Shown here: positions 13,887-44,183 of the stretch, one piece after another
How the letters are laid out: the number at the start of each line of letters is the position of its first letter
Position numbering within the stretch: the first letter of the stretch is position 1
Assembly (NCBI GenBank): GCA_017548445.1
Contig: JAFYZZ010000024.1
Location: 1-44,183 of the forward strand
Source of the DNA: Bacteroidales bacterium
Lineage (GTDB): Bacteria; Bacteroidota; Bacteroidia; Bacteroidales; UBA932
Length of the DNA: 44,183 bases
Reading direction: 5' to 3'
Program-made: the position numbers and the translations under genes
The notes under the pieces: generated by a model
Seen by the model: only the letters and a program-made list of their open reading frames with translations
What the model was told of the DNA's origin: nothing
Database searches by the model: none

Positions 13887-13917
13887 CAAAAATACGCTAA
13901 ATATTTTACCGGAACAA
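13887..13917 (-). promoter_or_regulatory. Internal promoter upstream of the GH3 gene in the PUL
   Basis: On the minus strand a -33 TTG (13915-13917), a 20-bp spacer and a -7 box TATTTTTG (13887-13894) match the Bacteroidetes consensus. The start codon is 19 nt downstream. This would allow GH3 and the terminal gene to be transcribed separately. Confidence 0.6.
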
Positions 13918-14991: not shown

Positions 14992-16169
14992 TTGAACAGC
15001 TTCGGGGCGAAAGTGTTCAGATAGAGGCGCCAGTTGGCCCAGGTATGGCCGCCGTCGGAGACGTAGAAGATATGGTCCAGGCCCTGCTCGGTGAGGGTCT
15101 TGTCCAGGGTCTTGGAGCCTTCGAAGAGGAAGTCGGCGTCGCCGCAGGCGAGGAAGTAAAGCTTCACGCCGGCTTTCTTGAGGGTCGCGATCTGCTCGGG
15201 GGTGGCGCTGCCGGCCGCGGAGAGCGGGCAGATATAGTCGAACATCTGCGGATAGAGGATGGAGGCGGTGATGGTATGGCCGCCGCCCATCGACAGGCCG
15301 GCGATGGCGCGGGCCTCGGGCTTCGCGATCACGCGGTAGTTCTTCTCGATGAAGGGGACGATCTCCTCGCAGAGGCTCACCACGTAGCCGTTCATCAGGC
15401 GGTTCCGCTCGGCTTCCGGCATATCCTGGAGTTGCTCCTGCATCCGGCGGTAGTCGGGCTGCGGGGCGGTCGGGATGCCCAGGGTCACGGCGGCCTGCTG
15501 GTTGGCGTTGCCGTTCGGCATCACCACGATCATCGGCTCGGCCAAACCCTTCTCGATAAGGTTGTCGAGGATCTGGGCGGTGCGGCCCATCGAGATCCAG
15601 GCTTCCTCGTCGCCGCCGGCGCCGTGCAGCAGGTACAGCACCGGATACTTCTTCTTGGGATTGCTCTCGTAGCCGTACGGGGTATACACGGTCAGGCGGC
15701 GGTTGATGCCGAGGACCTTGCTGTCATACCAGGGATGGCTGACGGTGCCGCGATGGCCGGCCTCGCCATAGTTCTCGGTACGCTGGCCGGGAACGATGAG
15801 CATATTGAGGAAACGGGTGCCGTCGCGCTGCACCATAATGTTCTGCGGGTCGTTCACGGACACGCCGTCCACCACGAAATTGTAGGTGTAGATTTCCGGG
15901 GCGGGAAGGGGGACCTTCACGGACCAGATGTTGTTCGCGCCGCGGACCATATCGATGCTGTCGCCGTAAGGGTTGGGCATCCAGGAGCCGCTGAGCTTGA
16001 CATAAGTGGCATAGTCGGCGCGGAAGCGGAAGGTCACACTGTCGCCCTGGATATCAGGGGAAACGACCTGGACGCCGCGGCCGCCGAAATTGAAGTTGGC
16101 AAGTTCCTGGGCTTGCAGGGATGCGGCCAGCACGAGGGCGGCCGAGAGGATGGTAACGATTCTTTTCAT
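14988..16169 (-). CDS. CE1-type esterase, second in the tandem series
   Basis: A 393-residue secreted CE1 esterase with a signal peptide (about 1-20, LQAQ). The E-set/CBM48-like domain covers about 30-125. The catalytic domain has Ser293 in GLSMGG, Asp344 or Asp346 in CGDADF and His375 in GGHTWANW. An insertion at about 228-258 (NANQQ through QDMPEAERNR) lengthens the loop before the elbow helix and could shape the substrate pocket. It starts 3 bp after the upstream CE1 stop and overlaps the next CE1 gene by 4 bp. The family includes feruloyl and acetyl xylan esterases. Confidence 0.9.
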   Translation of the reverse strand: MKRIVTILSAALVLAASLQAQELANFNFGGRGVQVVSPDIQGDSVTFRFRADYATYVKLSGSWMPNPYGDSIDMVRGANNIWSVKVPLPAPEIYTYNFVVDGVSVNDPQNIMVQRDGTRFLNMLIVPGQRTENYGEAGHRGTVSHPWYDSKVLGINRRLTVYTPYGYESNPKKKYPVLYLLHGAGGDEEAWISMGRTAQILDNLIEKGLAEPMIVVMPNGNANQQAAVTLGIPTAPQPDYRRMQEQLQDMPEAERNRLMNGYVVSLCEEIVPFIEKNYRVIAKPEARAIAGLSMGGGHTITASILYPQMFDYICPLSAAGSATPEQIATLKKAGVKLYFLACGDADFLFEGSKTLDKTLTEQGLDHIFYVSDGGHTWANWRLYLNTFAPKLFK

Positions 16170-16172
16170 CGG

Positions 16173-17396
16173 TTATTTGAAGAGTAAAGGAACAAATTCG
16201 CTAAGATAGATACGCCAATTGCGCCAGATGTGGCCGCCGTCGGTCTCCATATAGGTATAAGGATAGCCTGCGGCGTCCAGCTTCGCGCGGAACTCGTTGT
16301 TGGACTGGATGAGGAAGTCGGTGCTTCCGATACCGATCCACAGCATCGCGGGTTTCTTGGAGAAGTAGGTGGCGAGCTTGCCGTCGACGTTCTCGTAGAT
16401 CTCCTTGTGGGCGGCAGTCTGCTCGGAACCAGTGCCGATGGCGGCGGAGAACATACCGGAATAGTTGAACATATCCGGGTTGTTCAGCGTGATGTAGAGC
16501 GTATGGAAACCGCCCATCGACAGGCCGCAGATGGCGCGGCCCTGCTTCTTCGCGATGGTCCGGTAGTGGCTGTCGATGAACTTCACGACCTCCGGGAAGG
16601 CGGTCTCGAAGGTGCCCTCCATCGTCTGCGGCAGGTCCATCGTCGGACGGGTATAGCCGGTGGAATTCTCCAGCGGGGCGGCCTCCTGGGAGATGTTGCC
16701 GTTGGTGAAGACGACGATCATCGGCCGGGCCTGGCCGCGGGCGATCAGGTTGTCCAGGATCTGCGTGGCGCGGCCCTGCGTGACCCAGGCGTCCTCGTCG
16801 CCGCCGATGCCGTGCAGCACGTACAGGACGGGATATTTCGCCTTGGGATTGTCATCATAGCCGGCCGGGGTATAGACCGTCATCCGGCGGTCGAAACCCT
16901 CCGTGGCGCTGTGATACCACACTTTGGACACGGTCCCGTGGGGGACGCGGTGGATGGCGTAAAGGTCGCTTCGGGCGCCCGCCTGCGGAACCAGCAGCAC
17001 GCTGGTCAGCGAGGCGATGTCGCGGTTCACGAAAACGTTGTTCGGGTCGATGACCTGGGTGCCGTCCACGGAGAACGTATAGGTATACATCTCAGGCTCC
17101 ACCTTGAAGGGGGTGGTGTATTCCCACACGCCGCCCTGGCCTTCCCGAAGTTCTCCCACGCCGGGTGCGTCATAGCTGACCTTCTGGCCGTTCATTTCGA
17201 ACTCCAGCTTCTGCGTGGGCAGGAAATCGCCGGACACGGTCACGCGCACGGCCTTGGGGGCCACGTAGCGGAAAGTGACGGTTCCGTCCGGATTGATGAC
17301 GGGCGACTCGACGCCGGCCCCGCCGAACAGGGCCTGCTGCGCGAATGCGGTCACGCCCAGCAGGAGCGCCGCCGCAAGGGTCAAGGTTTTTTTCAT
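16173..17396 (-). CDS. CE1-type esterase, first long copy of the tandem series
   Basis: A 407-residue secreted CE1 esterase (signal peptide about 1-20, AFAQ). The E-set domain (about 28-140) is longer than in its paralogues, with an inserted segment KVSYDAPGVGELREGQGG. The catalytic domain has Ser293 in GLSMGG, Asp360 in GIGSTDF and His389 in GGHIWRNW. The ATG at 17396 begins the signal peptide; an in-frame ATG five codons upstream is less likely. It has its own promoter-like element in the 34-bp gap behind the preceding gene. Likely role: hydrolysis of acyl esters on oligosaccharide side chains in the periplasm. Confidence 0.9.
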   Translation of the reverse strand: MKKTLTLAAALLLGVTAFAQQALFGGAGVESPVINPDGTVTFRYVAPKAVRVTVSGDFLPTQKLEFEMNGQKVSYDAPGVGELREGQGGVWEYTTPFKVEPEMYTYTFSVDGTQVIDPNNVFVNRDIASLTSVLLVPQAGARSDLYAIHRVPHGTVSKVWYHSATEGFDRRMTVYTPAGYDDNPKAKYPVLYVLHGIGGDEDAWVTQGRATQILDNLIARGQARPMIVVFTNGNISQEAAPLENSTGYTRPTMDLPQTMEGTFETAFPEVVKFIDSHYRTIAKKQGRAICGLSMGGFHTLYITLNNPDMFNYSGMFSAAIGTGSEQTAAHKEIYENVDGKLATYFSKKPAMLWIGIGSTDFLIQSNNEFRAKLDAAGYPYTYMETDGGHIWRNWRIYLSEFVPLLFK

Positions 17397-17417
17397 ATCT
17401 GCTTTCTTCACTTTTTA

Positions 17418-17447
17418 CAAATATACAATATTAGAAGGTTTCTCCAA
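17418..17447 (-). promoter_or_regulatory. Internal promoter upstream of the tandem CE1 genes
   Basis: On the minus strand a -33 TTG (17445-17447), a 19-bp spacer and a -7 box TATATTTG (17418-17425) lie 21 nt before the CE1 start at 17396. The -33 region overlaps a 7-bp hairpin (GAAGGTT / AACCTTC) at the 3' end of the upstream gene. Confidence 0.55.
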
Positions 17448-18246
17448 CCTTCTGGAGCGCTTTCGGCAGGCACTCCTGCCAGAAGGTCCAGTAATGGATG
17501 CCGGCCCGGGCGATCCATTCGCATTGCAGGCCGTTATCCTTCATATAATTGGCCAGCGCCTCGGCATCGGCGTTGTTGACCGTGGTGTCTTCCGTCCCCA
17601 CCTCGATGGTGAAGGGCGGGAACACCGACTTGCTGGACTGGGCGTCGATCAGCGTCGTGAACCAGTCGGCGACGGCCGGGCTCATCGCATAGCCGTAGGT
17701 GAACTTTTCCGGATACTTCAGCGCGTGGTACAGCGTACCGTATCCGCCCATCGAAAGGCCGGCTATCGCCCGCTTTCCGCTGAACTTGTACGCACTTTCC
17801 ACTTCAGGCATCAGTTCCTCGTGAAAATAGGTTTCGAAGTTCCCCGAGTAGAAAGTCAGCTGGGCGTCCGGCATCACGATGATCATCGGCGTGCCTCCGT
17901 TCTTCACGTATCGGGCCGCGATGGCGGCCGCATTCCCGCCGGAAGGCATCCCATAACTCACTTCCGTGGACAGCCAGGCATCCTGGTTGTCCCCCGCCCC
18001 GTGCAACAGATACAGGAAGGGATAGGCCTTCTTCTCGTCGAAACCCGGCGGCAGCCAGACGTTGTATTTCATCGTCTGCTTCATCGCCGTGCTCTGGATG
18101 GTCCGTCCGCGGACTTCCTGCCCGTTGGGATACAGCAGATCCAGCAGGTTCACGGGATCCGTATCCTCCGGTTCTTCTTTGCCACAGGCACCGAGGGCCA
18201 GGGCCCCCAGTGCCAGTGCAGCAAAAAACTTGAACAAACGTTTCAT
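17431..18246 (-). CDS. Short CE1-type esterase lipoprotein
   Basis: A 271-residue predicted lipoprotein (lipobox LGAC, Cys21) consisting of the CE1 catalytic domain only, without the N-terminal E-set domain of its neighbours. The triad is Ser165 in GLSMGGYGT, Asp220 in GTEDTTV and His251 in GIHYWTFW; the oxyanion loop is LLHGAGDN. Lipid anchoring suggests action at a membrane, possibly the cell surface, before import through SusC/D, while the non-lipidated CE1 proteins would act in the periplasm. Its start codon directly follows the stop codon of the surface lipoprotein gene, with no spacer. Confidence 0.9.
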   Translation of the reverse strand: MKRLFKFFAALALGALALGACGKEEPEDTDPVNLLDLLYPNGQEVRGRTIQSTAMKQTMKYNVWLPPGFDEKKAYPFLYLLHGAGDNQDAWLSTEVSYGMPSGGNAAAIAARYVKNGGTPMIIVMPDAQLTFYSGNFETYFHEELMPEVESAYKFSGKRAIAGLSMGGYGTLYHALKYPEKFTYGYAMSPAVADWFTTLIDAQSSKSVFPPFTIEVGTEDTTVNNADAEALANYMKDNGLQCEWIARAGIHYWTFWQECLPKALQKVGETF

Positions 18247-19908
18247 CTATTCGAACTTGCCCACGAAGGAATAGCCCGTGGAGCCGACGAACTTGAAGGT
18301 GCCGTCCCCGACCTTGGTCACGGTCAGGGTCTCGCCCGGATTGACCAGGACGACGGAGCCGTCCGCCGCGACGTAGCGCGTTCCGCCCATACCCATACCC
18401 CAGGCGCTCAGGTCGTAGCCGTTGCCGAAGGTGTGGTCTTCGTGCGCATATTCCTTGCACACATATTCACCCTCGAAATCGGAGGATCCTTCCGTCAGCA
18501 CCAGCTGGAACCATACGCACTCCTCACCGTCGGCGTTCTTGAGGGTCAGGTTGTGCGTCTTCACGCCGGAGACGGGAGCGAAGGTCTCGTCCACCGGGTC
18601 GGACAGTTCGTCGGCGATGGTATACGCGGCCTCTTCGCCTTCCGAACCGCCGTTGCCGACGATGAAGTCGAAGCCGTTGCCGGAGAACTCATAGATGCCC
18701 TCCGCGAGCTTGGACACGCTGAGGGTCTCGCCGGGATTGATGAGCACCACCGCGCCGTCCTTGAGATAGCGGGAACCGCCCATACCCATACCCCAGGCGC
18801 TCAGGTCATAGCCGTTGCCGAAGGTGTGGTCCTCGTGTGCGTACTCGGTGCAGGTGTAATTGCCGGACAGGTCGGTGACCCCTTCCGTCAGGACGAGGTC
18901 GAACCAGGCCACCTCTTCTCCGGCCTTGTTGATGAAGGCCAGGGAGTGCGTCGTCACGCCCGCGACGGGGGTGAAGGTATTGTCCACGGCGCCGCCCAGC
19001 GTCTCGGTGTAGGTGTAGTCCGGCGTGGGAGCACCGGAGGGGGTAAGGGCCTCGATGGCGCCTTCGAAAACGGCCCAGTGAGGGTACGTGCTCTCTTCGC
19101 CCCAGGTGATGACCCAGTTGGCGCCCTTCTTCTCGACGGTGATCGTTTCGGCGCTGATATGCGTCGCCTCACCGGCGTTCCACCAGCAGGTGCCCCAGTG
19201 CATAATGCCCATTCCCCAGTCGCTCAGGTCGTACTCGTAGCCGGGAGCATACTGCCCCTCGCCCACGGTATCGCCGGTGGCGGCGGTGTAGACACCTTCG
19301 TGCAGATAGCCGTCTGCGCTGTAGACGTCGGCCGTCAGGGTGCAACCGTCTCCGGAAGGAGTCCCCATCGCGTCCACGCTCATTCCTTCGGTACCCAGCT
19401 TGAAGGTCACGGTACCGTTGGCGTTGGCCTGGGCGATCAGCATCTCGGTGAGCCTCACCGGTTCCGGATCCGGATCGAAATGGATGGTGCCGGTCCACTT
19501 GACCTTGTAGGGCGCACCGTCATCGAGGAACAGCACGGCGGAAAGCGTGTAGTTTTCCCCGTCCTGGGTAACCGTGATGGTGCCGGAAGCAACCTGCTTG
19601 CCGTTGACGGAAGTCTGGCCGAGGATGAAGTTACCCTTCCTGGCAGCGCCTGCGACAGCTTCCGTATAGGCGTTGGAGGTCAGATAGTAAGCGTCGCCGA
19701 CAAGCGTGGCGTGAAAGGTGTTCGAACCGTCGGAGAGGTCGAGCGTGAAGAGGCGCTGGCCGTCCACCTTGGCAGCATCGGAACTGATCTGGGTCATCTC
19801 CAGCACGGTCGGAGCCGGGAAGATACCCTTCAGCGGGTCCAGGACCGACTTGTAGCAGGAGGTCAGGCCCAACAGAAGCAGTCCGATCAGAAATATGTTC
19901 TTTTTCAT
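18247..19908 (-). CDS. Surface glycan-binding-type lipoprotein with three repeat modules
   Basis: A 553-residue predicted lipoprotein (lipobox LTSC) at the SusE/SusF position just after SusD. Such proteins usually sit on the cell surface and bind glycan. An N-terminal domain (about 20-150) is followed by three modules of about 130 residues. Modules two and three (about 298-425 and 429-553) are near duplicates sharing EYAHEDHTFGNGYDLSAWG and a NPGETL strand. Module one (about 165-295) is diverged but keeps YDLSDWGMG. Conserved Trp, Tyr and His residues could form repeated binding sites. I do not recognise a named domain. The ATG at 19908 is chosen over an ATG two codons upstream because it directly precedes the Lys residues of the signal peptide. 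Confidence 0.8.
   Translation of the reverse strand: MKKNIFLIGLLLLGLTSCYKSVLDPLKGIFPAPTVLEMTQISSDAAKVDGQRLFTLDLSDGSNTFHATLVGDAYYLTSNAYTEAVAGAARKGNFILGQTSVNGKQVASGTITVTQDGENYTLSAVLFLDDGAPYKVKWTGTIHFDPDPEPVRLTEMLIAQANANGTVTFKLGTEGMSVDAMGTPSGDGCTLTADVYSADGYLHEGVYTAATGDTVGEGQYAPGYEYDLSDWGMGIMHWGTCWWNAGEATHISAETITVEKKGANWVITWGEESTYPHWAVFEGAIEALTPSGAPTPDYTYTETLGGAVDNTFTPVAGVTTHSLAFINKAGEEVAWFDLVLTEGVTDLSGNYTCTEYAHEDHTFGNGYDLSAWGMGMGGSRYLKDGAVVLINPGETLSVSKLAEGIYEFSGNGFDFIVGNGGSEGEEAAYTIADELSDPVDETFAPVSGVKTHNLTLKNADGEECVWFQLVLTEGSSDFEGEYVCKEYAHEDHTFGNGYDLSAWGMGMGGTRYVAADGSVVLVNPGETLTVTKVGDGTFKFVGSTGYSFVGKFE
18383..18843 (-). repeat. Intragenic direct repeat, 68 bp at 18383-18450 and 18776-18843
   Basis: The two segments are almost identical at the DNA level and exactly 393 bp (131 codons) apart. 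They encode the conserved YAHEDHTFGNGYDLSAWG core of modules two and three. Differences are mostly synonymous, suggesting recent duplication, gene conversion or strong constraint. Confidence 0.8.
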
Positions 19909-19930
19909 ATGCATACAATTTTAAGGACGA

Positions 19931-21481
19931 TTAATAACCCGGGTTCTGCTGGATCTCGCTGTTGAGGCGGATTTCCGTGGCAGGATAAGGAAGGCGCTCG
20001 TTCTTGCCGGCCTTGAAGCCGAAAGCAGGGTTGCCGCAGCTCTTGTACTGGACCTGGCCGTTCACCTGGAGTTCAGGATAGGTGTCGCCGTTCTTGGACA
20101 TCTTGCTGCCTTCGCCCCAGCGGAGGAGGTCCTGCATACGGGTACCTTCGCCGAAGAGTTCCAGACGCTTCTCTAGTTTGATGTCGTCCAGCGTGACGGA
20201 GCCCTTGCTGGCAAGCCGGGCACGGTTGCGGACCATATTCACGTATTCGGCAGCCTTGGAAGCGTTGCCTGCGGCCAGATGGGCCTCGGCGCCGCAGAGC
20301 AGCACCTCGGCGTAACGCATCCACAGGGTGTTGGCCATATAGACATAGTCGTTGCCCATACCGCGCTCCTCGGCCAGGATGCGGAGTTTCCACATAAAGT
20401 AACCTTCGCCGATCACCGGGCTCTTGAGGGTGATGCCCAGTTCGCCGGTCAGCTGGTCGAGGGTCTTCAGGGACTCGTTCAGACGGTAGCCGTCGACGCC
20501 TTCGTCCTTGACGAAATCGTCATACAGGCTCTTGGTAGGCACGCGGAAACCCCAGCCCGTGTTCATAATGGGCGTGTCGGCCGGCCAGTTCATCTTGTCC
20601 ATACGCCAGTTGGTCATCAGCGCGTACATCGAGAAGTTCTGCCAGGAATTGTTGTCGTCGTGCACGCGGTTGCTCTCGAAGAGGCTTTCGACGTTGTGCT
20701 TATGGGAGGCACGGTGGATGAGGCTGTAGTCGTCCATCAGCGCATATTTGCCGGAATTGACGACGGCGTCGAACTGCGCGGCGGCCTCGGCGTTCTTCCC
20801 CTGCCACAGATAGACCTTGCCCAGGAGGGCCTGCGCGAACTGCTTGGTCACGCGCCAGGTGGTGTTGTCGTTCAGGCCGGTCTTCTCGGCCAGGGCGCCG
20901 GAAGAGATGGCCTCGTTCAGGTCCTTCTCCATCAGGCCCCAGAGTTCCTCGTCCGTTCCGTTGGGAACGTTATACTCGGACGGAGAAAGCTCGTGGTCCA
21001 CGAGCGGCGGGTTGCCCCACATCGTCTTCAGGTCGAAGTAGGCGAAGGCGCGGAAGACCTTGGCCTCGGCACGGGCCATCTTGGCCATATCGGAAGCCCC
21101 TTCCTCCTCCACGTGGCCCAGGATGACGTTGGCCTTGTAGATCAGCGTATAATAGGTGGTGAACATACTCTGGACGTAATCCTCTTCGGCGTCGAAGGTG
21201 AACTCGTTCAGATGCTCCAGGTTGTTGTTGTCTCCGCGCATCGAACCGCCGGCCCAGAAGTCGTCGGTAAGCATCGCCTTGCAGAGCTTCACATTGTATT
21301 CCCAACCGCGTACTTCCAGATACATAGCCACGTCGGCGGACAGGATCTGGTCATCGGTATTGTAATAGGTATTGTAGTCCAGGACTCCTTTCTGCGGGAT
21401 GTCCAGCATATCGGAGCAGGAAACGGCAGCAAAAGAACAAACGGCTGCCACAACAGACAGAATCAGATTTCTTGTTTTCAT
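19931..21481 (-). CDS. susD: SusD-like nutrient-binding outer-membrane lipoprotein
   Basis: A 516-residue SusD/RagB-family lipoprotein (lipobox AVSC, Cys22) that forms the lid of the SusC transporter and binds oligosaccharide. The N-terminal SusD-like domain contains the family's characteristic start (DMLDIPQKGVL) and TPR helices such as ARAEAKVFRAFAYFDL. The C-terminal part carries AEVLLCGAEAHLAAGN and the closing YPATEIRLN...NPGY motif. Length is typical. It lies 13 bp after the SusC stop, the invariant SusC-SusD order. The ligand cannot be read from sequence. Confidence 0.95.
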   Translation of the reverse strand: MKTRNLILSVVAAVCSFAAVSCSDMLDIPQKGVLDYNTYYNTDDQILSADVAMYLEVRGWEYNVKLCKAMLTDDFWAGGSMRGDNNNLEHLNEFTFDAEEDYVQSMFTTYYTLIYKANVILGHVEEEGASDMAKMARAEAKVFRAFAYFDLKTMWGNPPLVDHELSPSEYNVPNGTDEELWGLMEKDLNEAISSGALAEKTGLNDNTTWRVTKQFAQALLGKVYLWQGKNAEAAAQFDAVVNSGKYALMDDYSLIHRASHKHNVESLFESNRVHDDNNSWQNFSMYALMTNWRMDKMNWPADTPIMNTGWGFRVPTKSLYDDFVKDEGVDGYRLNESLKTLDQLTGELGITLKSPVIGEGYFMWKLRILAEERGMGNDYVYMANTLWMRYAEVLLCGAEAHLAAGNASKAAEYVNMVRNRARLASKGSVTLDDIKLEKRLELFGEGTRMQDLLRWGEGSKMSKNGDTYPELQVNGQVQYKSCGNPAFGFKAGKNERLPYPATEIRLNSEIQQNPGY

Positions 21482-21494
21482 AAGGCAGTCAGTC

Positions 21495-24400
21495 TTAGAA
21501 GGTGATGTTTATACCGAAAACGACCTTCTTGGCGGTCGGATAGGAACCCTTGTCGACGCCCAGGCTGCTTCCCGTACCGGTGATCTCGGGATCGAAGCCC
21601 GGATACTTGGAGAAGGTGAACCAGTCGTCCAGGGAACCATAGATACGCAGATTATCCACCTTGAACTTGCGGGTGAAGCTCTGCGGGAGCGTGTAACCGA
21701 GCTGGATCTGCTTGATCTTGGCGTAAGAGCCGTCAAAGACCACGGCGTCGGAGGTGAGGTACTGCTGCCAGTTGGCGGCGTTGGCGGCCGGGGTGGTGCC
21801 GTTGGTATGCTCCGGCGTCCAGCGGTCCTCCGTGAGGAAGCTCAGGCGGTTGGACGGGTAGTCCACCACGGTGAGGCAGTTGAAGATCTTGCTGCCGGCG
21901 GCGCCGGTGAGGAAGACCACCGCGTCGAGGCCCTTCCAGGCAGCGTTCAGGGTGATACCGTAGTTCACTTTCGGGATACCGGAACCGAGGTCCATCTTGT
22001 CGGCCTGGGTGGCGTCGCCGCTGCCGTCGACGTCTTCGAACATAGCGTTACCGTTGGTGGGATCGATACCCGTGAAATGGTAACCGTAGAAATGCCAGGC
22101 GGGATAGCCTTTCTCGAAACGGGTGATGGTGCCGTAGTTGCGCACGCCGGTGCCGTCGATACCGTCGGAGAGGGTCTCGTGCAGGTACGTCACTTCATTC
22201 TTGAGGGTAGAGAGGTTGCCGCCGATGCTGTAGCTGAAGTCGCCAATCTGGTCTCTCCACTTGAGTTCGAACTCGAAACCGGTGTTGCGCACGTTGCCGG
22301 CGTTCACCGGAGACGCGGTCACGCCCACCACGGTGGACGGGGTGATACCGGTCACGATCAGGTCCTTGGTCATCTTGTTGAACCAGTCCACGCTGAAGGT
22401 CAGGCGGTCGCGCAGGAAGCGCAGGTCCAGACCGAAGTTCAGCTGCTCGGAGGTCTCCCACTTGAGCTCTTCGTTACCGGTGGAGGAAGGGGCGTAACCC
22501 AGCAGATACTCCAGGCCGTTTCCGGTAGGATAGTTGCCCGTCTGGGCGATCACGTTGGCGTAGCGGTATCCGCTCAGGCCGGCGAGGGAACCGTTCTGGC
22601 CCCAGCTGGCGCGGAATTTCGCGAAGTTGACCACGCCCTTGAGCGGGACGAAGAAGGGCTCCTCGGAGATCGTCCAGCCGGCGGATACGGAGGGGAAGTA
22701 ACCCCAGCGCATCGGCTTCGGCAGGATGGAAAGGTCGGCCGCGTCCGCGCGGAAGGAAACCTGCACGTTGTACTTGTTCTGATAGCTCCAGTTGGCACGT
22801 CCGAAGTAGGAAAGCTTGCGGGAGATGTTCGGGGTGGCGCCGCTCACGGAAGGGACGGCGTTGGCCGAAGCGGAACCGAAGTAGTAGAACAGCGGATCGT
22901 TCTGGGTGACGCCCAGGTCGTCGTCGCTGCCGCGGTAGCTTCCGCTCATCGAGAAGCTGCGGGAGCTGGAGAAGGAGTTACCCACCATCACGGTCACGAA
23001 ATGCTTGCCGAAGTTCTGGTTCCAGTTGGCGAAGTTCTCCCACTGATAATACATCGAATTGCTGTCGGAACCGGACAGGCCGATATAGTTCTGGTAGGCG
23101 TTCTGGTTGATGTAGTAGTTGAGGCTGTAGCCGTAGTTGTCGCTGGAGGACAGGCGGTAACCCACGCGGGAAGTGATCGTCAGGTTCTTCCAGGGCGTGA
23201 AGTTGACGGAAGTGGAGCCGTTGATGTTGAATCCGTGGGAATCGCTGTAGGAACGGTCGCGCATAATGCGCGGGTTCACGTTCTCGGACGGGTTGAAATA
23301 AGAAGCGGCGTAGTAGTTTCCGTTCTCGTCCTTGAGCAGGTTGCGGCCGGCGTCCAGATAGGACTGCATATAGGCAGGAAGTGCATCCGGAGCATAGGTC
23401 GGAGGGGTCAGCGGATCCAGCTGCAGTGCGGAGAGCACGGCGGAACCGTAGTCGGAGCCCTCGGAGACGCTGCGGGCCTGGTAGTACTCGACCTGGTTGT
23501 TGGTCTGGATTTCCAGCCAGGGCTTGAACTTCCAGCTGGCGTTCACCATAAAGGTAAGGCGCTTGTAGACGTCTGCGTCGCCCACGAACATACCGTTGTT
23601 GTCCAGATAGGCGGCGGAGACGTAGAGGTTGCCGCGGTCGTTGCCGCCGCTGAACGAAAGGTTATGATGCTGCATCAGGGAATTCTCGTAGGAATAGGCC
23701 AGCCAGTCGGTGTTGGTCTGGAAGTCCCAGTTGGCGTAGAAGTCCTGGATGTTGTAACGGCCGTTCTCGATGAAGTACTGCATATACTGCTCGGAGTTCA
23801 TCACCTTGGGCACGTGGTTCAGGCTCTGGGAAGTCAGCTGGTAGGAGTAGCTGATCCGGCCTTCGCCCTGGCCGCGGCGGGTGGTGATCATCACCACGCC
23901 GTTACCGGCCTCGGCGCCATAGATGGCGGCGGAAGCACCGTCCTTCAGGACTTCCATCGACTCGATGTCGTTGGGGTCGATACCGGCGATGGAATTGGTG
24001 CGGCGGCCGTCCACGACGTACAGCGGGTTGGAGGAACCGTTGGAGGAGATACCGCGGACCTGGATGCTCGGGGAAGCGCCCGGGCGGGCGGAGTTGGAGA
24101 ACACCTGGACACCGGCGGTCTTGCCCTGGAGGGCGGACTCGGGGGAAGTGATGGTTCGGTTCTGGATGTCTTCGGATTTCACCTGGGAGATGGAACCGGT
24201 CACATCCGACTTCTTCTGGACACCGTAGCCCACGACCACGGTCTCTTCCAGCATTTCAGCGTCCACGGCGAGCTTGACGTTGAGCGTACGGGATTCGTTC
24301 ACGACAAACTCCTGCGTGGCGAAGCCGACGGACGAGAACACCAGGGTCGCGCCCGCAGGCACGCTGATGGAATAGTTGCCGTCGAGGTCCGTCACGACGC

Positions 24401-24563
24401 CGTTGGTGGTGCCTTTCTCGAAGACACCGGCACCGATCACCGGCTCGTTCTGGTCATCGACGACTGTTCCGGAGACCGTCACCCGCGTCTGAGCCGCGAG
24501 CGAGAGTCCCATCAAGAGCGACAGCCCGAAAGCTGCCAGTCTTTTCAATGCAGAATTACTCAT
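21495..24563 (-). CDS. susC: SusC-like TonB-dependent outer-membrane transporter
   Basis: A 1,022-residue SusC/RagA transporter importing oligosaccharides using TonB energy. In order: signal peptide (about 1-25, SLAAQ), carboxypeptidase-like regulatory domain (about 28-100, VSGTVVDDQNEPVIGAGV), TonB box (EETVVVGYG), plug domain (about 115-235) with the family signature SNPLYVVDGRR and DPNDIESMEVLKDGASAAIYG, then the 22-strand barrel ending in an aromatic residue (INITF). The ATG at 24563 is chosen because it begins the signal peptide; the longer frame upstream lacks signal-like features. It lies second in the operon, 16 bp after the carboxylesterase. Confidence 0.95.
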   Translation of the reverse strand: MSNSALKRLAAFGLSLLMGLSLAAQTRVTVSGTVVDDQNEPVIGAGVFEKGTTNGVVTDLDGNYSISVPAGATLVFSSVGFATQEFVVNESRTLNVKLAVDAEMLEETVVVGYGVQKKSDVTGSISQVKSEDIQNRTITSPESALQGKTAGVQVFSNSARPGASPSIQVRGISSNGSSNPLYVVDGRRTNSIAGIDPNDIESMEVLKDGASAAIYGAEAGNGVVMITTRRGQGEGRISYSYQLTSQSLNHVPKVMNSEQYMQYFIENGRYNIQDFYANWDFQTNTDWLAYSYENSLMQHHNLSFSGGNDRGNLYVSAAYLDNNGMFVGDADVYKRLTFMVNASWKFKPWLEIQTNNQVEYYQARSVSEGSDYGSAVLSALQLDPLTPPTYAPDALPAYMQSYLDAGRNLLKDENGNYYAASYFNPSENVNPRIMRDRSYSDSHGFNINGSTSVNFTPWKNLTITSRVGYRLSSSDNYGYSLNYYINQNAYQNYIGLSGSDSNSMYYQWENFANWNQNFGKHFVTVMVGNSFSSSRSFSMSGSYRGSDDDLGVTQNDPLFYYFGSASANAVPSVSGATPNISRKLSYFGRANWSYQNKYNVQVSFRADAADLSILPKPMRWGYFPSVSAGWTISEEPFFVPLKGVVNFAKFRASWGQNGSLAGLSGYRYANVIAQTGNYPTGNGLEYLLGYAPSSTGNEELKWETSEQLNFGLDLRFLRDRLTFSVDWFNKMTKDLIVTGITPSTVVGVTASPVNAGNVRNTGFEFELKWRDQIGDFSYSIGGNLSTLKNEVTYLHETLSDGIDGTGVRNYGTITRFEKGYPAWHFYGYHFTGIDPTNGNAMFEDVDGSGDATQADKMDLGSGIPKVNYGITLNAAWKGLDAVVFLTGAAGSKIFNCLTVVDYPSNRLSFLTEDRWTPEHTNGTTPAANAANWQQYLTSDAVVFDGSYAKIKQIQLGYTLPQSFTRKFKVDNLRIYGSLDDWFTFSKYPGFDPEITGTGSSLGVDKGSYPTAKKVVFGINITF

Positions 24564-24579
24564 TTGACTAGATAATTGG

Positions 24580-26055
24580 TTAATATGATAATTTAGATTC
24601 GATATTGAGCAGCATCGTCGCCGGCCTGGCGGCCGTGTAGGGCTCCCAGGCGGGGATGCCATCGGCGGACGGGACGCCCGTCCTGGCGAAGTTCGTCCAG
24701 AGGCGGCTGATGCGATGGCCGAGTTCGACGGCGTCGGCGCCGCCGCCCGTGAAGGTCCGGTGCAGGGCTACGTTGTCGAACACGAAGGGGATCTCGATGC
24801 AGTGCGTGCTGCCCAGTGCGCCGTCCAGCACCGGGGACTCCCAGGTGAACTGGTACAGATACACCGGAGCACAGCCGGCTGCGGCGCGGTCGGCCGCCTG
24901 CTGCACGGCAAGCGGCTTGAAGATGGGATCTTCCCGGTCACGCGTGAATTCGTGATAGGTGGTGCCGATGATGACCGGGATGTCCTTCGACAGGGCCATC
25001 GAGGCCGGCGAACCGGGCTGCTCGGGCAGCACGTCGCCGTCCACCACCGGACGGGTACCGAAAATGATCTGGTTCAGGAAGTTGACGGGCAGTTCGCCGT
25101 CCTGCTCCGCCTCCGCGCGCACTTCGGCGACGGCGGCGTCATAAGCTTCCAGCAGCGTCGCGTACGGGACTTTCGCGATCTCGTCGATGCGGGAAGGGTT
25201 GATGCCCAGGCGGCGCACCGTGGCGGCGCCGATGCGGCGCGACCACTTCTGTGGCAGCGCCTCCAGGATAGAGCCGCTCTCGACGACCGCCTTGCTGAAA
25301 AGGCCTTGCGCAGAGGGCATCGCAAGTAGGGTGCACACCTTGCCGCCACCGCCCGACTGGCCGAAGATGGTCACGTTCGCGGGGTCTCCCCCGAAGGCGG
25401 CGATGTTGTCGCGGACCCACTCCAGCGCCTTCACGATGTCGGTCATTCCGAGGTTGCCGGAAGCCGCGTACTTGGCGCCGAAGCCGGAAAGGTCGAGGAA
25501 GCCGAGGACATTGAGCCGGTGGTTGAGCGACACGACCACGACGCCGTGGTCGCGGGCGAGGTTGGCACCGTCATAGCCGATCTGTTCCTGGCCGGAACCG
25601 GCGCTGAAACCGCCGCCGTGCAGCCACACCATCACCGGACGCTTGCCGCCGTCGCCGATGCCGGAGGTCCATACATTGACGCGGAGGCAGTCTTCGTCGG
25701 GGAATCCGTCGTCCCAGTGCATCGCGAAGGCCTGGTCGTCGTCGTACCAGCCGGTCCGGGCGCCCTGCGGGCAGGTGGGACCGTAAGCCCGGCTTGCACG
25801 GACTTCCGTCCAGGGCTCGGGATCGACGGCAGGCCGGAAACGCTCCGCCCTGGCGTAGGGAATGCCTTTGTAGGTAAAGACCCCGTCTTCGATGTAGCCG
25901 GCTACGGGGCCGGAACCTGTCTGCACCGTGGAGGCCTTGGCGGAAGTCTCCAGGACGTGGAGTTCGCCGCCCTGTCCGGCGTGGCCGGGCCCCTGGCTGC
26001 AGGCCGCCACGAGGAAGGCGGCGGACAACAGGAAAAAGGTTTTTGCGTGTCTCAT
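24580..26055 (-). CDS. Carboxylesterase type B lipoprotein, first gene of the PUL operon
   Basis: A 491-residue carboxylesterase family B enzyme (para-nitrobenzyl-esterase type) with lipobox LVAAC (Cys19). Motifs are the oxyanion loop WLHGGGFSAGSG, the EDCLRVNVW signature, nucleophile Ser234 in FGQSGGGG, Glu369 in GTTYHEF and His418 in GSTHCIE, so the triad is complete. This fold is unrelated to the CE1 genes that follow, giving the operon two independent esterase types. Family members in sugar loci are thought to act on acyl or aryl esters. The ATG at 26055 precedes the signal peptide; an ATG nine codons upstream is in frame. It is the first gene after the divergent promoter region shared with the HTCS regulator. 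Confidence 0.9.
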   Translation of the reverse strand: MRHAKTFFLLSAAFLVAACSQGPGHAGQGGELHVLETSAKASTVQTGSGPVAGYIEDGVFTYKGIPYARAERFRPAVDPEPWTEVRASRAYGPTCPQGARTGWYDDDQAFAMHWDDGFPDEDCLRVNVWTSGIGDGGKRPVMVWLHGGGFSAGSGQEQIGYDGANLARDHGVVVVSLNHRLNVLGFLDLSGFGAKYAASGNLGMTDIVKALEWVRDNIAAFGGDPANVTIFGQSGGGGKVCTLLAMPSAQGLFSKAVVESGSILEALPQKWSRRIGAATVRRLGINPSRIDEIAKVPYATLLEAYDAAVAEVRAEAEQDGELPVNFLNQIIFGTRPVVDGDVLPEQPGSPASMALSKDIPVIIGTTYHEFTRDREDPIFKPLAVQQAADRAAAGCAPVYLYQFTWESPVLDGALGSTHCIEIPFVFDNVALHRTFTGGGADAVELGHRISRLWTNFARTGVPSADGIPAWEPYTAARPATMLLNIESKLSY

Positions 26056-26079
26056 ACTGTGGTTCTGTTTCACTGGATG

Positions 26080-26087
26080 CAAAATTA
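26080..26087 (-). promoter_or_regulatory. -7 box TAATTTTG of the PUL operon
   Basis: On the minus strand TAATTTTG fits TAnnTTTG and lies 24 nt upstream of the first PUL gene. No TTTG is found at the normal -33 distance, as expected for a promoter needing an activator such as the adjacent HTCS. No operator could be defined. Confidence 0.5.
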
Positions 26088-26225: not shown

Positions 26226-28082
26226 ATGAAAATGAAACGCTTGGTCTTTCTCCTCCTGCTGGCGGCCTGCAACGGGCCGCGGCCCGTGCCCGGGCCGTCC
26301 CTGGCTGCCGGCGGCACCGTCATCGCCGACCGGCTGTCCAACCAGCGCGTGAACGCATTCGCGGAGGATGCCGACGGCCACATATGGATCGGCACCTTCA
26401 GGGGGCTGGACAAATACACCGTACACGACTATCATCAGTATTTCGCCACAGGCGACACCCTGGGGCTGCCCGACAACCAGGTCACGGCCCTGCACTGCAG
26501 CGCCAACGGGCAGCTATGGGTGGCCACGATGAACGGCGTCGCAACCCGCAGGGACGACGGCCGCTTCCACGTCGTTCTCGCCAGCGGCAGTTTCTCCGGC
26601 ATCTGCGAGACGCGCGACGGGCAGATCCTCTTCAGCGACGGGGCCACCCTGCAGCGCTATGATGCCGACAGCGACCGCATCCGGCCCGTCATCCGGGACT
26701 ACGGCGGCGTCGTCACCCTGATCGGACAGGACGGCAACGTCTGGTCCGTCAGCAACCTGACGGAACTTCGCCGATACGACGCCCGCGACTTCCGGCTGGC
26801 CGGCTCCTGGCCGACGCGGCATCCTGTCTATCACGGCGCATCCGTCCCGACGGGCGAGATCTGGTTGTCGGGTATGGGCGAACTCAGCATCTTCGACCCG
26901 CGCTCTGAAAAATGGCAGGATGTCCCCGAGGCCATCCGGAAAGAGCGCCGGCTGTCCGGCGGCGACATCGACATCCTCTTCGCCAACGGGACGGATATGC
27001 TCCTGCACACCATCACGGACGGGATGTTCTGCTACAACCAGGCCACCGGCCGGCTCCTGCACCAGTCCGACCCCGCATTCCCCTACGACGTCCCGGATTT
27101 CGAGATCCGCACCCTGTTCCGCGACAGCCGCGGCAACCTCTGGTTCGGCTCCACCGACCAAGGCTACAGCGTCTCCTATACCGACCGTAACGGCTTCGAC
27201 AGCAACCGTTTCCTCACCGATTACTTCCGCAACAGATCGGTCGTCTCCCTCTGCCCCGATCAGGCCGGGAACCTGTGGATTTCCACGCTCAACGACGGCC
27301 TGTATGTCTACGAACCCGGGAAGAATACCGTACGCCGCATCGACCTGCGGCGACTCGTCCCCGACAACAACATCGGCTACATCCGCTGCTACGACATCTT
27401 CTGCGACGCCCAGGGTGAGCTCTGGCTGGTGCTGACGGAAAAATACCGCGTCCTGCGGTGCCGCTTCGACGGACGGGAGCTCCGGGCCGTCGACCAGGTG
27501 GACCTGGTCAACCCCGTGACCGTCTCGCAGGACGACCTGGGGCGGATCTGGATCGCCAACTACACCGGGCAGCTGGTCCGCTACGACAAGGACACGCGCA
27601 AGACGGACTGGACCGCGCTCGGCGAGAATGCGCGATTCGCCCCCACCGTCCTTCTCCAGCTGGAACCGGGCCGGATGCTCGCCGCCACCTACGACACCAC
27701 CGTCTGCGAGGTCAACACCAATTCCGCGGAGTTGCGGTTCCGTGCCCCTTCGGATTCCTGGAAGAGCGCCTTCAGGCGGATGCCGGCCAATCCCACCTGC
27801 CTGTTCAAGGACAGCGCCGGCGACATCTGGCTCGGCACGGTGGGCAGCGGCCTGCTGCATTATGATTCCGAGAACCGGGAGACCGTGCGGATGGAAGGCC
27901 TTTCCTGCCAGGACATCTGCGACGTCCGGGAAGACCTGCAAGGCAATGTCTGGATCAGCACGATGAACGGCCTGTGCCGTTACGACCGCACCGTCGGCAC
28001 GTTCACCCAGTTCTTCGAGAGCGACGGAATCGGCGGCAACCAGTTCTGCGACCGCGCCTCCTGCCTCCTGCCTCCTGCCTGA
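26226..28082 (+). CDS. HTCS regulator, N-terminal periplasmic sensor part (upstream of frameshift)
   Basis: 618 codons encoding a signal sequence with a lipobox-like LLAAC, then the periplasmic two-bladed beta-propeller sensor of a hybrid two-component system. Many Reg_prop-type repeats are visible (for example DADGHIWIGTFRGLDKY, SRGNLWFGSTDQG, QAGNLWISTLNDGLYVY, SAGDIWLGTVGSGLLHY). It ends prematurely (LLPPA-stop) inside a 7-bp tandem repeat. Without one repeat unit the frame continues into the downstream part with the family-typical segment LLPDGTLVFGG. It is divergent from the PUL operon, as is common for HTCS activators that sense oligosaccharides. As drawn, the protein lacks kinase, receiver and DNA-binding parts. 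Confidence 0.88.
   Translation: MKMKRLVFLLLLAACNGPRPVPGPSLAAGGTVIADRLSNQRVNAFAEDADGHIWIGTFRGLDKYTVHDYHQYFATGDTLGLPDNQVTALHCSANGQLWVATMNGVATRRDDGRFHVVLASGSFSGICETRDGQILFSDGATLQRYDADSDRIRPVIRDYGGVVTLIGQDGNVWSVSNLTELRRYDARDFRLAGSWPTRHPVYHGASVPTGEIWLSGMGELSIFDPRSEKWQDVPEAIRKERRLSGGDIDILFANGTDMLLHTITDGMFCYNQATGRLLHQSDPAFPYDVPDFEIRTLFRDSRGNLWFGSTDQGYSVSYTDRNGFDSNRFLTDYFRNRSVVSLCPDQAGNLWISTLNDGLYVYEPGKNTVRRIDLRRLVPDNNIGYIRCYDIFCDAQGELWLVLTEKYRVLRCRFDGRELRAVDQVDLVNPVTVSQDDLGRIWIANYTGQLVRYDKDTRKTDWTALGENARFAPTVLLQLEPGRMLAATYDTTVCEVNTNSAELRFRAPSDSWKSAFRRMPANPTCLFKDSAGDIWLGTVGSGLLHYDSENRETVRMEGLSCQDICDVREDLQGNVWISTMNGLCRYDRTVGTFTQFFESDGIGGNQFCDRASCLLPPA
28056..28080 (+). repeat. Heptanucleotide tandem repeat (GCCTCCT) causing the HTCS frameshift
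   Basis: GCCTCCT occurs at 28056-28062, 28063-28069 and 28070-28076, followed by a partial GCCT at 28077-28080 (3.57 copies). A unit of 7 bp shifts the frame by one base per copy. Removing one copy joins frame 26226 to frame 28252 and gives RASCLLPDGTLVFGG across the junction, the sequence expected for the family. Confidence 0.95.
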
Positions 28083-28251
28083 CGGCACCCTCGTCTTCGG
28101 CGGCACTCACGGAATCACCTGGTTCAACCCGCTGGATATCAGGCGCAAGCAGTCCGTTCCGCTGGTCTTCGAGGCCCTGCGCGTCCACAACACCCTCGTC
28201 CTCCCCGGGAAAGACTCCCCCATCGACCGGGAACTCTCCTCCTGTCCGGAC

Positions 28252-30255
28252 GTGACCATCCGCCACGACCAGGACGGCTTCAGCATTTCCTACGCGGCCC
28301 TCGACTACAGCGAATACGCGGCCCCGCGCTACGACTATATGATGGACGGTTTTGACCGCTACTGGGTGGAAGCCGGCACGGCCAACGAAGCCTACTACGC
28401 CAATCTCCCGGCCGGCAGATATACCTTCCGCGTCCGCCTGCAGGACGATCCGGACTCCGAGCGGTCCCTCTCCGTACGCGTCCTCCCGCCCTGGTACCGC
28501 ACCTGGTGGGCTTTCCTCCTGTACGCCCTCGCCGGGGTCGTGCTCGGGATCTTCGTCTGGCAGGCGCTCCGGCACATCCGCCGCGTGCGCAAGGAGGCTG
28601 CGCGGCACATCCGCGAAGTGCGGCGCGAACGCGAGATGGCGGAAGCCGCCCAGGAGCAGGAAAAGCGCCTCAACCGCATCCAGATGGATTATTTCGCCAA
28701 CGTGGCGCACGAATTCCGCACCCCGCTGACGATGATAGCCGGGCCGGTGGAACAGCTCGCCGCCTCGGACAAGATCAGCGGCGAGGACCGCAAACTGCTC
28801 GGCATCGTCCAGCGCAGCTCCACGTGGATGCTCTCGCTGGTGGGCCAGCTGCTCGACTTCAACCGTATCGCCAACAAGAAACTCCAGCTGAAGGTCGCGA
28901 AGGGCGACATCGTGGAGCCGCTGCGCGGCGTGGCCGACCTGTTCCGCTATAACGCCGATATGAAAGGCATCGAGCTCAGTACCTACGGGCTCGAGGACAG
29001 TTTCACAATGTGGCGCGACGCCGACAAGGTCACGAAGATCACGATGAACCTGCTGTCCAACGCCCTGAAATTCACGCCTTCCGGCGGCAAGGTATCCCTG
29101 ACTTTCGACGTGCTTCCGCGCGAGGATGCGGCCCGTGAATTCCCGCTTACCGACACCGATACGGATGCGCAGTATGCCCAGATCTCGGTCGCAGACACCG
29201 GCTGCGGCATCCCCGAGGACCAGCTCGAAGACATCTTCGACCGCTTCTACCAGGCCGGCAACCGGCCCGGCGGCGTGTCCGGCTCGGGCATCGGCCTCTT
29301 CTACTCCCGGGCCCTCGCCGGGCTGCACCACGGCTACATCCACGCCCGCAACCGGGATGAAGGCGGCGCCGTGTTCACCCTGATCCTGCCGGTCAGCGCC
29401 TCGTCCTACTCGGAAGACGAGCGTACGGCCAATGACCCGTTCCAGCAGCCGCTGCCCCAGATGCCGGCCACGCCGGCGCAGGAAGCCGAGCCGGACGGTT
29501 CCAGGCGGCGCATCGTGGTGGTGGACGACGACATCGACGTGGCCAACTACGTCAAGATGCTCCTGTCGCCCCAGTACAGCGTCATCGTCCATTTCGACGC
29601 CGACTCCGCGCTGAAGGCGATGGAGGAGGAGGCGCCCGACCTGGTAATCAGCGACGTGGTGATGCCCGGCCGGAGCGGATACGAGCTCTGCGAGGCCGTC
29701 AAGGGCGACCTCCAGCTCAGCCACATCCCCGTCATCCTGGTCACCGCCGCCGTGGCCGTGGAGAACCAAGTGCAGGGCCTGAACAAGGGCGCCGACGCCT
29801 ACGTGACCAAGCCCTTCAACCCGGCCTACCTGAAGGCTCTCGTAAAGTCGCAGCTGGAGAACCGCGACAAGCTGCGCCAGCGGCTCGGATCCGTGACCAG
29901 CACCGAGGAGATCGGCCCGGAAGAGGCTCTCTCACCGCGCGACAACGCCTTTATGAAGGAACTTTATGAGCTGATGGACAAGGAGTTGGCGAATCAGGAA
30001 CTGGACATCACCCGGATTACCGAGATGATGCGCATCTCCCGGACCAAGTTCTATTACAAGGTCAAGGGCCTGACGGGCGAGAATCCCGGCGTGTTCTTCA
30101 AGCGTTACAAGCTGAACCGCGCCGCCGACCTGCTCAAGGAAGGAAAATACAATATGTCGGAAATCGCCTATATGACGGGCTTCAACACCCTGTCGCACTT
30201 CTCCACCTCCTTCAAGAAACAGTTCGGCGTCCCGCCGTCCGAATTCACAGGTTAA
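28252..30255 (+). CDS. HTCS regulator, C-terminal kinase/receiver/AraC part (downstream of frameshift)
   Basis: 667 codons from the first ATG; the homologous frame is open from about 28081 (DGTLVFGGTHGITWFNP). It holds the rest of the Y_Y_Y domain, a membrane helix (about 86-104), HisKA with His153 in VAHEFRTPLT, HATPase with N box MNLLSNALKF and DTGCGI, a receiver domain with Asp468 in VISDVVMPG and Lys in YVTKPF, and an AraC-type DNA-binding domain at the end. All signalling residues are intact, so the frameshift is the only visible lesion in the 4,030-bp gene. With one repeat unit removed the whole gene would encode 1,340 residues, a normal HTCS length. It probably regulates the divergent PUL. 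Confidence 0.9.
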   Translation: MTIRHDQDGFSISYAALDYSEYAAPRYDYMMDGFDRYWVEAGTANEAYYANLPAGRYTFRVRLQDDPDSERSLSVRVLPPWYRTWWAFLLYALAGVVLGIFVWQALRHIRRVRKEAARHIREVRREREMAEAAQEQEKRLNRIQMDYFANVAHEFRTPLTMIAGPVEQLAASDKISGEDRKLLGIVQRSSTWMLSLVGQLLDFNRIANKKLQLKVAKGDIVEPLRGVADLFRYNADMKGIELSTYGLEDSFTMWRDADKVTKITMNLLSNALKFTPSGGKVSLTFDVLPREDAAREFPLTDTDTDAQYAQISVADTGCGIPEDQLEDIFDRFYQAGNRPGGVSGSGIGLFYSRALAGLHHGYIHARNRDEGGAVFTLILPVSASSYSEDERTANDPFQQPLPQMPATPAQEAEPDGSRRRIVVVDDDIDVANYVKMLLSPQYSVIVHFDADSALKAMEEEAPDLVISDVVMPGRSGYELCEAVKGDLQLSHIPVILVTAAVAVENQVQGLNKGADAYVTKPFNPAYLKALVKSQLENRDKLRQRLGSVTSTEEIGPEEALSPRDNAFMKELYELMDKELANQELDITRITEMMRISRTKFYYKVKGLTGENPGVFFKRYKLNRAADLLKEGKYNMSEIAYMTGFNTLSHFSTSFKKQFGVPPSEFTG

Positions 30256-33975: not shown

Positions 33976-33994
33976 CTCATCTGATTTGCAAAAA

Positions 33995-34666
33995 ATGTAT
34001 CCGAACGAGAAATATCCCTCCCAGGTGCTCCGGGAAGCCGTCGAGGCCATCGGTTCGCTGCCCGGCGTGGGCTCCCGCAGCGCCCTGCGCCTGGCGCTGC
34101 ACCTGCTCGGCCAGCCCGCCGAGAACATCCGCCATTTCGCCGACGCCGTGGGCCGGTTGGCCGACGACGTGCACTACTGCCGCATCTGCCAGATGATCGC
34201 CGACGGCGACGTCTGCTCCATCTGCGCCGACCGCTCCCGCGACGCGCGCACCATCTGCGTGGTGGAGAGCGTACGCGACGTGATGAGCATCGAGGCCACC
34301 GGGCAGTACCGCGGCGTGTATCACGTGCTGGGCGGCATCATCTCCCCCATCGACGGCATCGGCCCGTCGGACATCCATATAAAGGAACTGGTGGAGCGCA
34401 TCGACCGGATGCACGAGGAAGACGCCGCCGTCACCGACCTGCCCGGCGGGGACGACCTGCCCGCGGGAGACATCGAAATCATCCTGGCGCTTTCCGGCGA
34501 TGTGGAGGGCGAAACCACTTCCCTGTACATCTACCGCCAGATCGAGAACAAAGGCGTGAAGGTCTCCACCCTCGCCCGCGGCCTGGGCTTCGGCGATGAC
34601 CTCGAATACGCCGACGCCCTCACCCTCGGCCGCTCCCTCGTCGCCCGCCAGCCTTTCAAGCCATAG
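33995..34666 (+). CDS. recR: Recombination protein RecR
   Basis: A 223-residue recombinational repair protein that acts with RecF/RecO to load RecA at gaps. The N-terminal helix-hairpin-helix reads GSLPGVGSRSALRLALHLL. The zinc finger has Cys62, Cys65, Cys74 and Cys77 (CRIC...CSIC). The Toprim domain follows with ICVVESVRDVMSIE and ILALSGDVEGE. It is slightly longer than the usual 200 residues because of an acidic insertion around DLPGGDDLPAGD (about 150-163). A TTG three codons upstream could also start the frame; the ATG at 33995 is preferred. It ends 8 bp before a convergent gene. Confidence 0.95.
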   Translation: MYPNEKYPSQVLREAVEAIGSLPGVGSRSALRLALHLLGQPAENIRHFADAVGRLADDVHYCRICQMIADGDVCSICADRSRDARTICVVESVRDVMSIEATGQYRGVYHVLGGIISPIDGIGPSDIHIKELVERIDRMHEEDAAVTDLPGGDDLPAGDIEIILALSGDVEGETTSLYIYRQIENKGVKVSTLARGLGFGDDLEYADALTLGRSLVARQPFKP

Positions 34667-34674
34667 GCGACCGT

Positions 34675-35700
34675 TTATTTCAGTACCCGGAAGGTAAATG
34701 ACTGCGAGCCCAGCAGCCCCGTGCCATCGACGGCCTCGACGAGGCCGATGAACTCCGTATTGACATCGGAAGCGGCGAAGGAGATTTCGGCAATGCCATT
34801 TTCGTCGGTCAAAACGGCAGGGCGCCATTGAAGCAGGTTTCTATAGTCCGGTGTGGGAGAGGCGAGGTCCAAGGCATCGGGCTCGTAGAACTCCCGCTTT
34901 GGATGATATCCCTGCGCCTTCCACATTCCATTCATTTCCAGCAGGTCCTCCTCGCTTAAGTCAGGACCTGTGTATGTAAAATCACGGATGAATTCCGACA
35001 CGACATATACGTCACCGTACCTGCTGTCAGGGTAATGCTCGAATTTTATCAATGCATATTTATGACCGCGTATAGGCTGCATACGTTTACGCCCTTGTCC
35101 AAAATATTCCGTAGCCAGGAATGAGCCCTCAGGATGGTGAGTATAGCCATTATAGTCATTTAAAAAACCCTTGACTCCTTCTTCTGCCCATTCGCAATCG
35201 CAGACCCAGGCTCCTGTAGACATAATCGCAAGACTGTCCAGGTAACCCGTAACTTTGTCCCGGGCAACGGTATTGCCCCGGGCCCTGACGGTAGCCTCGC
35301 TCAGCACCGTCACATCTGGATCGTAGTAAAACGGCTCGTCCTGCTCCACCTCAACGTAATGGTTTTGAGCTAGATAATGCTCTCGCCCCTGCCGAAAAAC
35401 CTCGATGCTGTCGAACGGACTATCCATAGAGAGCTTTGCCTTGGGCTTTGCCGTCATCGGCTTCAAATAGACAATCCCCGGCAACGAGCCCATCACCTCC
35501 GCATCAATCTCGAACCGGCCTAAAGAGTCCGTCATCACCATACAGGTGTCCCCCTGCGGAGAAAAGGCCTGGATGAACAGATACCGTTCCAGACGGTCCT
35601 TCCCGCTGATCCCATCCGTCAGCACCTGCCTTCCCTGCCCCACCGCCGGGACGGCAGCGAGGGCAGTCAGGAACAGCGATATGACAATCCGGCGATTCAT
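34675..35700 (-). CDS. C-terminal half of an MG2/carboxypeptidase-like secreted protein, separate gene
   Basis: A 341-residue protein with its own signal peptide (about 1-22, AVGQ). A carboxypeptidase-regulatory-like beta domain (about 24-90, TDSLGRFEID) follows, and the C-terminus (about 285-341) has WRPAVLTDENGIAEISFAASD. In related Bacteroidetes proteins this segment forms the second half of one roughly 750-900-residue protein whose first half matches the adjacent upstream gene. Here the two are separate, in the same frame, divided by one TAA directly followed by this ATG. Base composition is locally low: 35041-35160 is about 42% GC by hand count. Function is unknown; the family resembles alpha-2-macroglobulin MG2 and TonB-plug-linked proteins. 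Confidence 0.7.
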   Translation of the reverse strand: MNRRIVISLFLTALAAVPAVGQGRQVLTDGISGKDRLERYLFIQAFSPQGDTCMVMTDSLGRFEIDAEVMGSLPGIVYLKPMTAKPKAKLSMDSPFDSIEVFRQGREHYLAQNHYVEVEQDEPFYYDPDVTVLSEATVRARGNTVARDKVTGYLDSLAIMSTGAWVCDCEWAEEGVKGFLNDYNGYTHHPEGSFLATEYFGQGRKRMQPIRGHKYALIKFEHYPDSRYGDVYVVSEFIRDFTYTGPDLSEEDLLEMNGMWKAQGYHPKREFYEPDALDLASPTPDYRNLLQWRPAVLTDENGIAEISFAASDVNTEFIGLVEAVDGTGLLGSQSFTFRVLK

Positions 35701-42044: not shown

Positions 42045-42070
42045 TTTTTTTTAGTATCTTTAGATGCTAA

Positions 42071-44183
<2,113 letters not shown>

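Follow-up and report, generated by a model that had tools for sequence, protein, structure and literature searches.

To our knowledge, phase variation in Bacteroidales is mostly brought about by DNA inversion. Frameshifts by slippage at short tandem repeats are an ordinary kind of mutation, exemplified by the CTGG hot spot of lacI. Three reports describe systems comparable to the locus considered here. The neuO gene of Escherichia coli K1 is phase-variable through a coding heptanucleotide repeat of 3–53 units, which varies among 64 genomes and most commonly has 20 units (PMC13001214), and a survey of Haemophilus influenzae, in which three units were the threshold for counting heptanucleotide repeats, gives 16–23 units for hmw1a/hmw2a in two strains and 1–7 units for a TonB-receptor gene in four strains, and cites about 1e-4 per generation as the rate for tetranucleotide repeats (PMC2651432). 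In mutL of Salmonella, spontaneous conversion is reported at three-unit repeats, where the conversion was shown by experiment, the unit of six bases keeps the frame, and the repeat belongs to the normal gene in the strains that the report presents (PMC2955026). Among the titles and abstracts listed from the open-licence literature, no report of repeat-length control of a hybrid two-component regulator (HTCS) was found, an absence that is no proof.

The window (the whole stretch of DNA that was analysed, 44,183 bases) encodes on its plus strand a sugar-sensing HTCS in two pieces. The first piece (26226–28082; 618 residues) contains the sensor propeller (Reg_prop) and ends at a TGA stop codon (28080–28082), and the second piece (28081–30255) contains Y_Y_Y, HisKA, HATPase_c, Response_reg and HTH_18 and has its earliest start codon, GTG, at 28252, 170 bases past the stop. 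As identified with Pfam, the complete HTCS domain set (propeller, Y_Y_Y, histidine kinase, receiver and AraC-type DNA-binding domain) is thus spread over both pieces, in the order found in the HTCS of Bacteroidales PULs and, as there, beside SusC and SusD genes. Unlike the usual HTCS, which is a single polypeptide (1315–1354 residues, counted from the start of the match, in six of six related loci, L001–L006, all with an unbroken frame), the gene in the window is interrupted by the stop and a change of frame. The first piece terminates ahead of a hydrophobic stretch near 28510–28560, which on our reading of the translation is a putative membrane segment.

The junction of the two frames coincides with an array of GCCTCCT (28056–28080, plus strand), which comprises 3.57 units in the bases and is returned by Tandem Repeats Finder with period 7, 3.6 copies and 100% matches as the highest scoring of 20 rows. 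Nowhere else in the window does a period-7 run reach 2.4 units. The array lies inside the HTCS coding region and is one unit longer than the frame accommodates, its unit of seven bases not being divisible by three. When one unit is omitted, the recomputed translation is a single protein of 1340 residues with one terminal stop, containing DRASCLLPDGTLVFGG, so that the extra unit, alone, explains the split. The sequence-only reading had placed 3.57 copies precisely at the break and had stated that removing one unit joins the frames into this protein, and both statements are confirmed. No inverted repeat was found at the tract among those around the locus, Rfam gave zero matches at the gathering threshold, the search of virus contigs found no relative, and the scan for promoters and terminators scarcely exceeded shuffled sequences.

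The split is probably a fresh loss-of-function frameshift, in which a one-unit slippage expansion has inactivated the HTCS of this strain. In this lineage, A-S-C-L-L-P is encoded by codons that coincidentally spell 2.57 units of GCCTCCT, and the tract is absent from relatives that use other codons for these residues. The longest period-7 run at the site is 25 bases in the window and 18 bases without the extra unit. Among 2000 synonymous-codon shuffles of the HTCS gene, a period-7 run of at least 18 bases (2.57 units) arose in 16 and one of at least 25 bases in none; by these counts coincidence is a plausible source of 2.57 units somewhere in a genome, and the last unit is best regarded as a duplication. 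A strand slip during replication would have added this unit (+7 bases) and shifted the HTCS frame, and a reverse slip could restore the gene at the low rate of a hot spot, as at any short tandem repeat. The proposed event resembles ordinary slippage of the lacI CTGG type, one unit being gained in a repeat that arose from codon choice, with no feature that sets it apart; the mechanism would be that of any slippage frameshift, and there is no sign of an evolved contingency locus. As a counter-point, three-unit heptanucleotide arrays are rare in the lineage, which makes one inside a regulator noticeable and could signal something special about the site.

The nearest protein found, P0001, is encoded on another contig (14,673 bases). 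With 1338 residues and 98% identity it is full length, and it too reads DRASCLLPDGTLVFGG at the site. It is the only near-identical relative known and was compared as a protein. Altogether 715 homologues passed the E-value threshold and 120 were listed, of which 107 fit a single pattern of site length and the other 13 keep the same length as judged by eye. Searches with each HTCS half returned no near-identical broken piece among the matches listed (best identities 78% and 78–82%), where clustering at 90% identity could conceal such a piece within a cluster. A recurrent break at the site was considered and rejected, as the end points of 175 shorter homologues (P0121–P0295) are scattered along the gene. 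Nine of them do begin or end near the site, a point against the preferred reading given above. Of these nine, P0150 ends near the site, and P0222, P0224, P0254, P0255, P0256 and P0259 start at an internal Met located 17–19 residues downstream of it. The other two, the distant homologues P0227 (52%) and P0246 (49%), begin with residues that look out of frame and are followed directly by the conserved DGTLVFGG or FGG, which would fit a break close to the site.

At the DNA level, the site was examined in 41 loci, namely L001–L006, the best 30 places of the genome searches (L007–L036) and five more (L037–L041). Eight of these are repeats (L007 and L037 of L001, L008 of L002, L009 of L003, L038 of L011, L039 of L013, L040 of L012 and L041 of L015), and the site motif is present in 40 of the 41 loci, corresponding to 32 of 33 distinct places. 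The nearest genome found, a MAG of uncultured Bacteroidia RUG10765 (L001), is 82% identical in the sensor half, and relatives of this kind suggest that the host is a rumen bacterium. In all 32 readable distinct loci the peptide length is constant at the site and the reading frame runs through it without interruption, and the longest period-7 run within 66 bases around the site measures 9–16 bases. These short runs indicate that the tract is not conserved, and all 32 lack the array. In L031, where the motif is unmatched, there is an open frame of 1194 residues; the open frame of L016 is short, the locus having just 2,506 bases; and that of L029 is short as well, its upstream part reading as unrelated sequence. 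In L026, a one-base gap near base 801, relative to the 97%-identical L025, breaks the HTCS frame about 930 bases upstream of the site.

The sampling was extended to 400 genomes from the genus to which the L001 genome belongs, in 86 of which the HTCS search matched, and the exact three-unit sequence (21 bases) occurs in none of the 400. Within 400,000 bases of the nearest relative, a single period-7 run reaches 18 bases and no array comprises three units. A further sample consisted of 149 genomes from the genus that includes the L006 genome (Bacteroides; recorded as Bacteroides muris); 30 of them gave 37 matches, and every match traverses the site without a stop. A conserved contingency tract is therefore rejected, being absent from the relatives read (32 loci; 400 genomes).

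The sequence-only reading had proposed that slippage could switch the regulator and its PUL on and off as the array alternates between 2.57 and 3.57 units, and had named relatives with a site of normal length as evidence to the contrary. A normal length is what was found, as far as the site is testable, in 32 of the 33 distinct loci. An evolved or incipient phase-variable switch, toggling HTCS and PUL in the population, is accordingly improbable, and we hold the form in which it would be a young heptanucleotide contingency locus, born of a coding coincidence and flipping to give PUL-responsive and PUL-silent cells, to be just as doubtful. The unit length indivisible by three and the intactness of both HTCS halves are in its favour, and the intact P0001 together with the split window copy means that ON and OFF forms both exist in close relatives. 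Precedents are provided by the heptanucleotide repeat of neuO, which like the array here is a 7-base tandem repeat within coding sequence whose gains and losses of a unit alter the frame (PMC13001214), and by the conversion described for mutL, likewise a chance-like repeat of about three units at which slippage inactivates the gene reversibly (PMC2955026). However, the tract is kept in none of the related loci or sampled genomes, codon choice accounts for it, and the nearest protein is full length. Its 3.57 units, at the lower limit of the threshold of the Haemophilus influenzae survey, are few compared with hmw1a/hmw2a (PMC2651432) or with the variable neuO repeat, from which the array differs further in its absence from related loci, its place in a metabolic regulator and the lack of variation in the single sequence at hand (PMC13001214). 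The mutL repeat differs, too, in that the extra unit in the window is no part of the normal gene (PMC2955026). The proposal of a slippage switch is thus unsupported, and because the relatives that could be compared are unbroken and repeat-free, an ordinary recent mutation is the more likely reading.

The extra unit might instead come from metagenome assembly or polishing, with the cells themselves carrying 2.57 units. The site is a tandem repeat, the window may be a metagenome record, and the one-base gap in L026 breaks an HTCS frame in another genome; moreover, predicted proteins often include HTCS copies that are interrupted at one position or another, and such an artefact is the more likely for it. 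Against it, 25 bases are easily covered by one read, and no further broken gene was found in the checked coding regions of the window, so that we regard an artefact as unlikely and infer that the allele is present in actual cells. It is very improbable that the split is bypassed or harmless, either because ribosomes shift by +1 at the stop or because two separately translated proteins cooperate. The stop is a TGA followed by C and in this resembles the shift site of prfB, which is also TGA then C, but the purine-rich, Shine-Dalgarno-like stretch is absent before the stop, the first start of the second frame lies as far downstream as noted above, and none of the related loci read is split at the site.

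A recent frameshift mutation, the reading preferred here, is also consistent with the state of the gene. Between the window copy and P0001, 23 of the 614 residues of the sensor half and 6 of the remaining 724 differ. The two are nearly equidistant from three outgroups (L001, P0002 and P0003); the window copy has 14 derived changes and P0001 has 8, a gap too small to mean much. Relative to L001, the two HTCS halves have dN/dS values of 0.21 and 0.11, the esterase has 0.14 and SusC 0.08. From these ratios and the near-equal outgroup distances, the break is probably recent, and a long-decayed pseudogene is rejected on the same grounds. The earlier statement that the remainder of the HTCS is intact and not decayed is borne out by these data and by the Pfam domains.

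The checked coding regions of the window are single open frames, with no other broken gene, as judged by Pfam and frame periodicity and, for some, by comparison with a homologue. The idea of an error-ridden contig is unsupported, as the odd-looking open reading frames at 33977–35700 and 42064–44183 are normal genes on other frames by frame periodicity and open ends. The plus-strand frame at 33986–34666 has a translation that we take to resemble RecR, and the larger minus-strand frame over it is a shadow according to frame periodicity; the plus-strand gene at 42083–44183, which runs off the window end, presumably encodes a protein resembling GH2 beta-galactosidase. A second hybrid kinase (40359–42044, plus strand; 561 residues) contains HisKA, HATPase_c, Response_reg and HTH_18 without a propeller, and it looks naturally short rather than like a broken HTCS, since a hydrophobic stretch is located at its start.

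The HTCS adjoins SusC and SusD genes, the location of a PUL regulator, and its placement beside a PUL in the sequence-only reading agrees with the Pfam matches of the neighbours. Divergent from it is a carboxylesterase gene (COesterase by Pfam; 24580–26082, minus strand), which is followed on the same strand by genes for a SusC-like TonB-dependent receptor (21495–24662) and a SusD-like protein (19931–21481) of the adjacent PUL, a 555-residue gene in the post-SusD position with no Pfam or NCBIfam match (18247–19914), four successive genes that each encode PF00756, a putative esterase domain (13906–18246), a glycoside hydrolase family 3 gene (11606–13867) and, after it, a gene without family match. 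A carboxylesterase gene adjoins the HTCS in all six loci L001–L006, with SusC next in four of them (L001, L004, L005 and L006) and esterase genes in its place in L002 and L003. The same type of neighbourhood in these loci indicates that the HTCS is a conserved regulator of the PUL type. The four PF00756 esterases and the carboxylesterase beside the HTCS suggest an ester-decorated polysaccharide as substrate of the PUL.

As a consequence of the frameshift, the product would end after 618 residues and so lack its kinase, receiver and DNA-binding domains. Export of the sensor half may still take place, but this half would be unable to signal, and the kinase half would have neither a nearby start codon nor its sensor; given that the first start of the second frame is at 28252, a kinase joined to its sensor would not be expected. 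The esterase-rich PUL has in this way probably lost its dedicated activator, and loss of PUL induction is likely on the evidence of the sequence.

If the array were after all a true switch, it would give gut Bacteroidales a new means of varying the use of glycans among the cells of a population. On the preferred reading of a recent slippage mutation, the locus is a warning against inferring a switch from a single assembled sequence, and it would provide a clean example of how a coincidence of codons makes a short tandem repeat at which slippage then disrupts a regulator.
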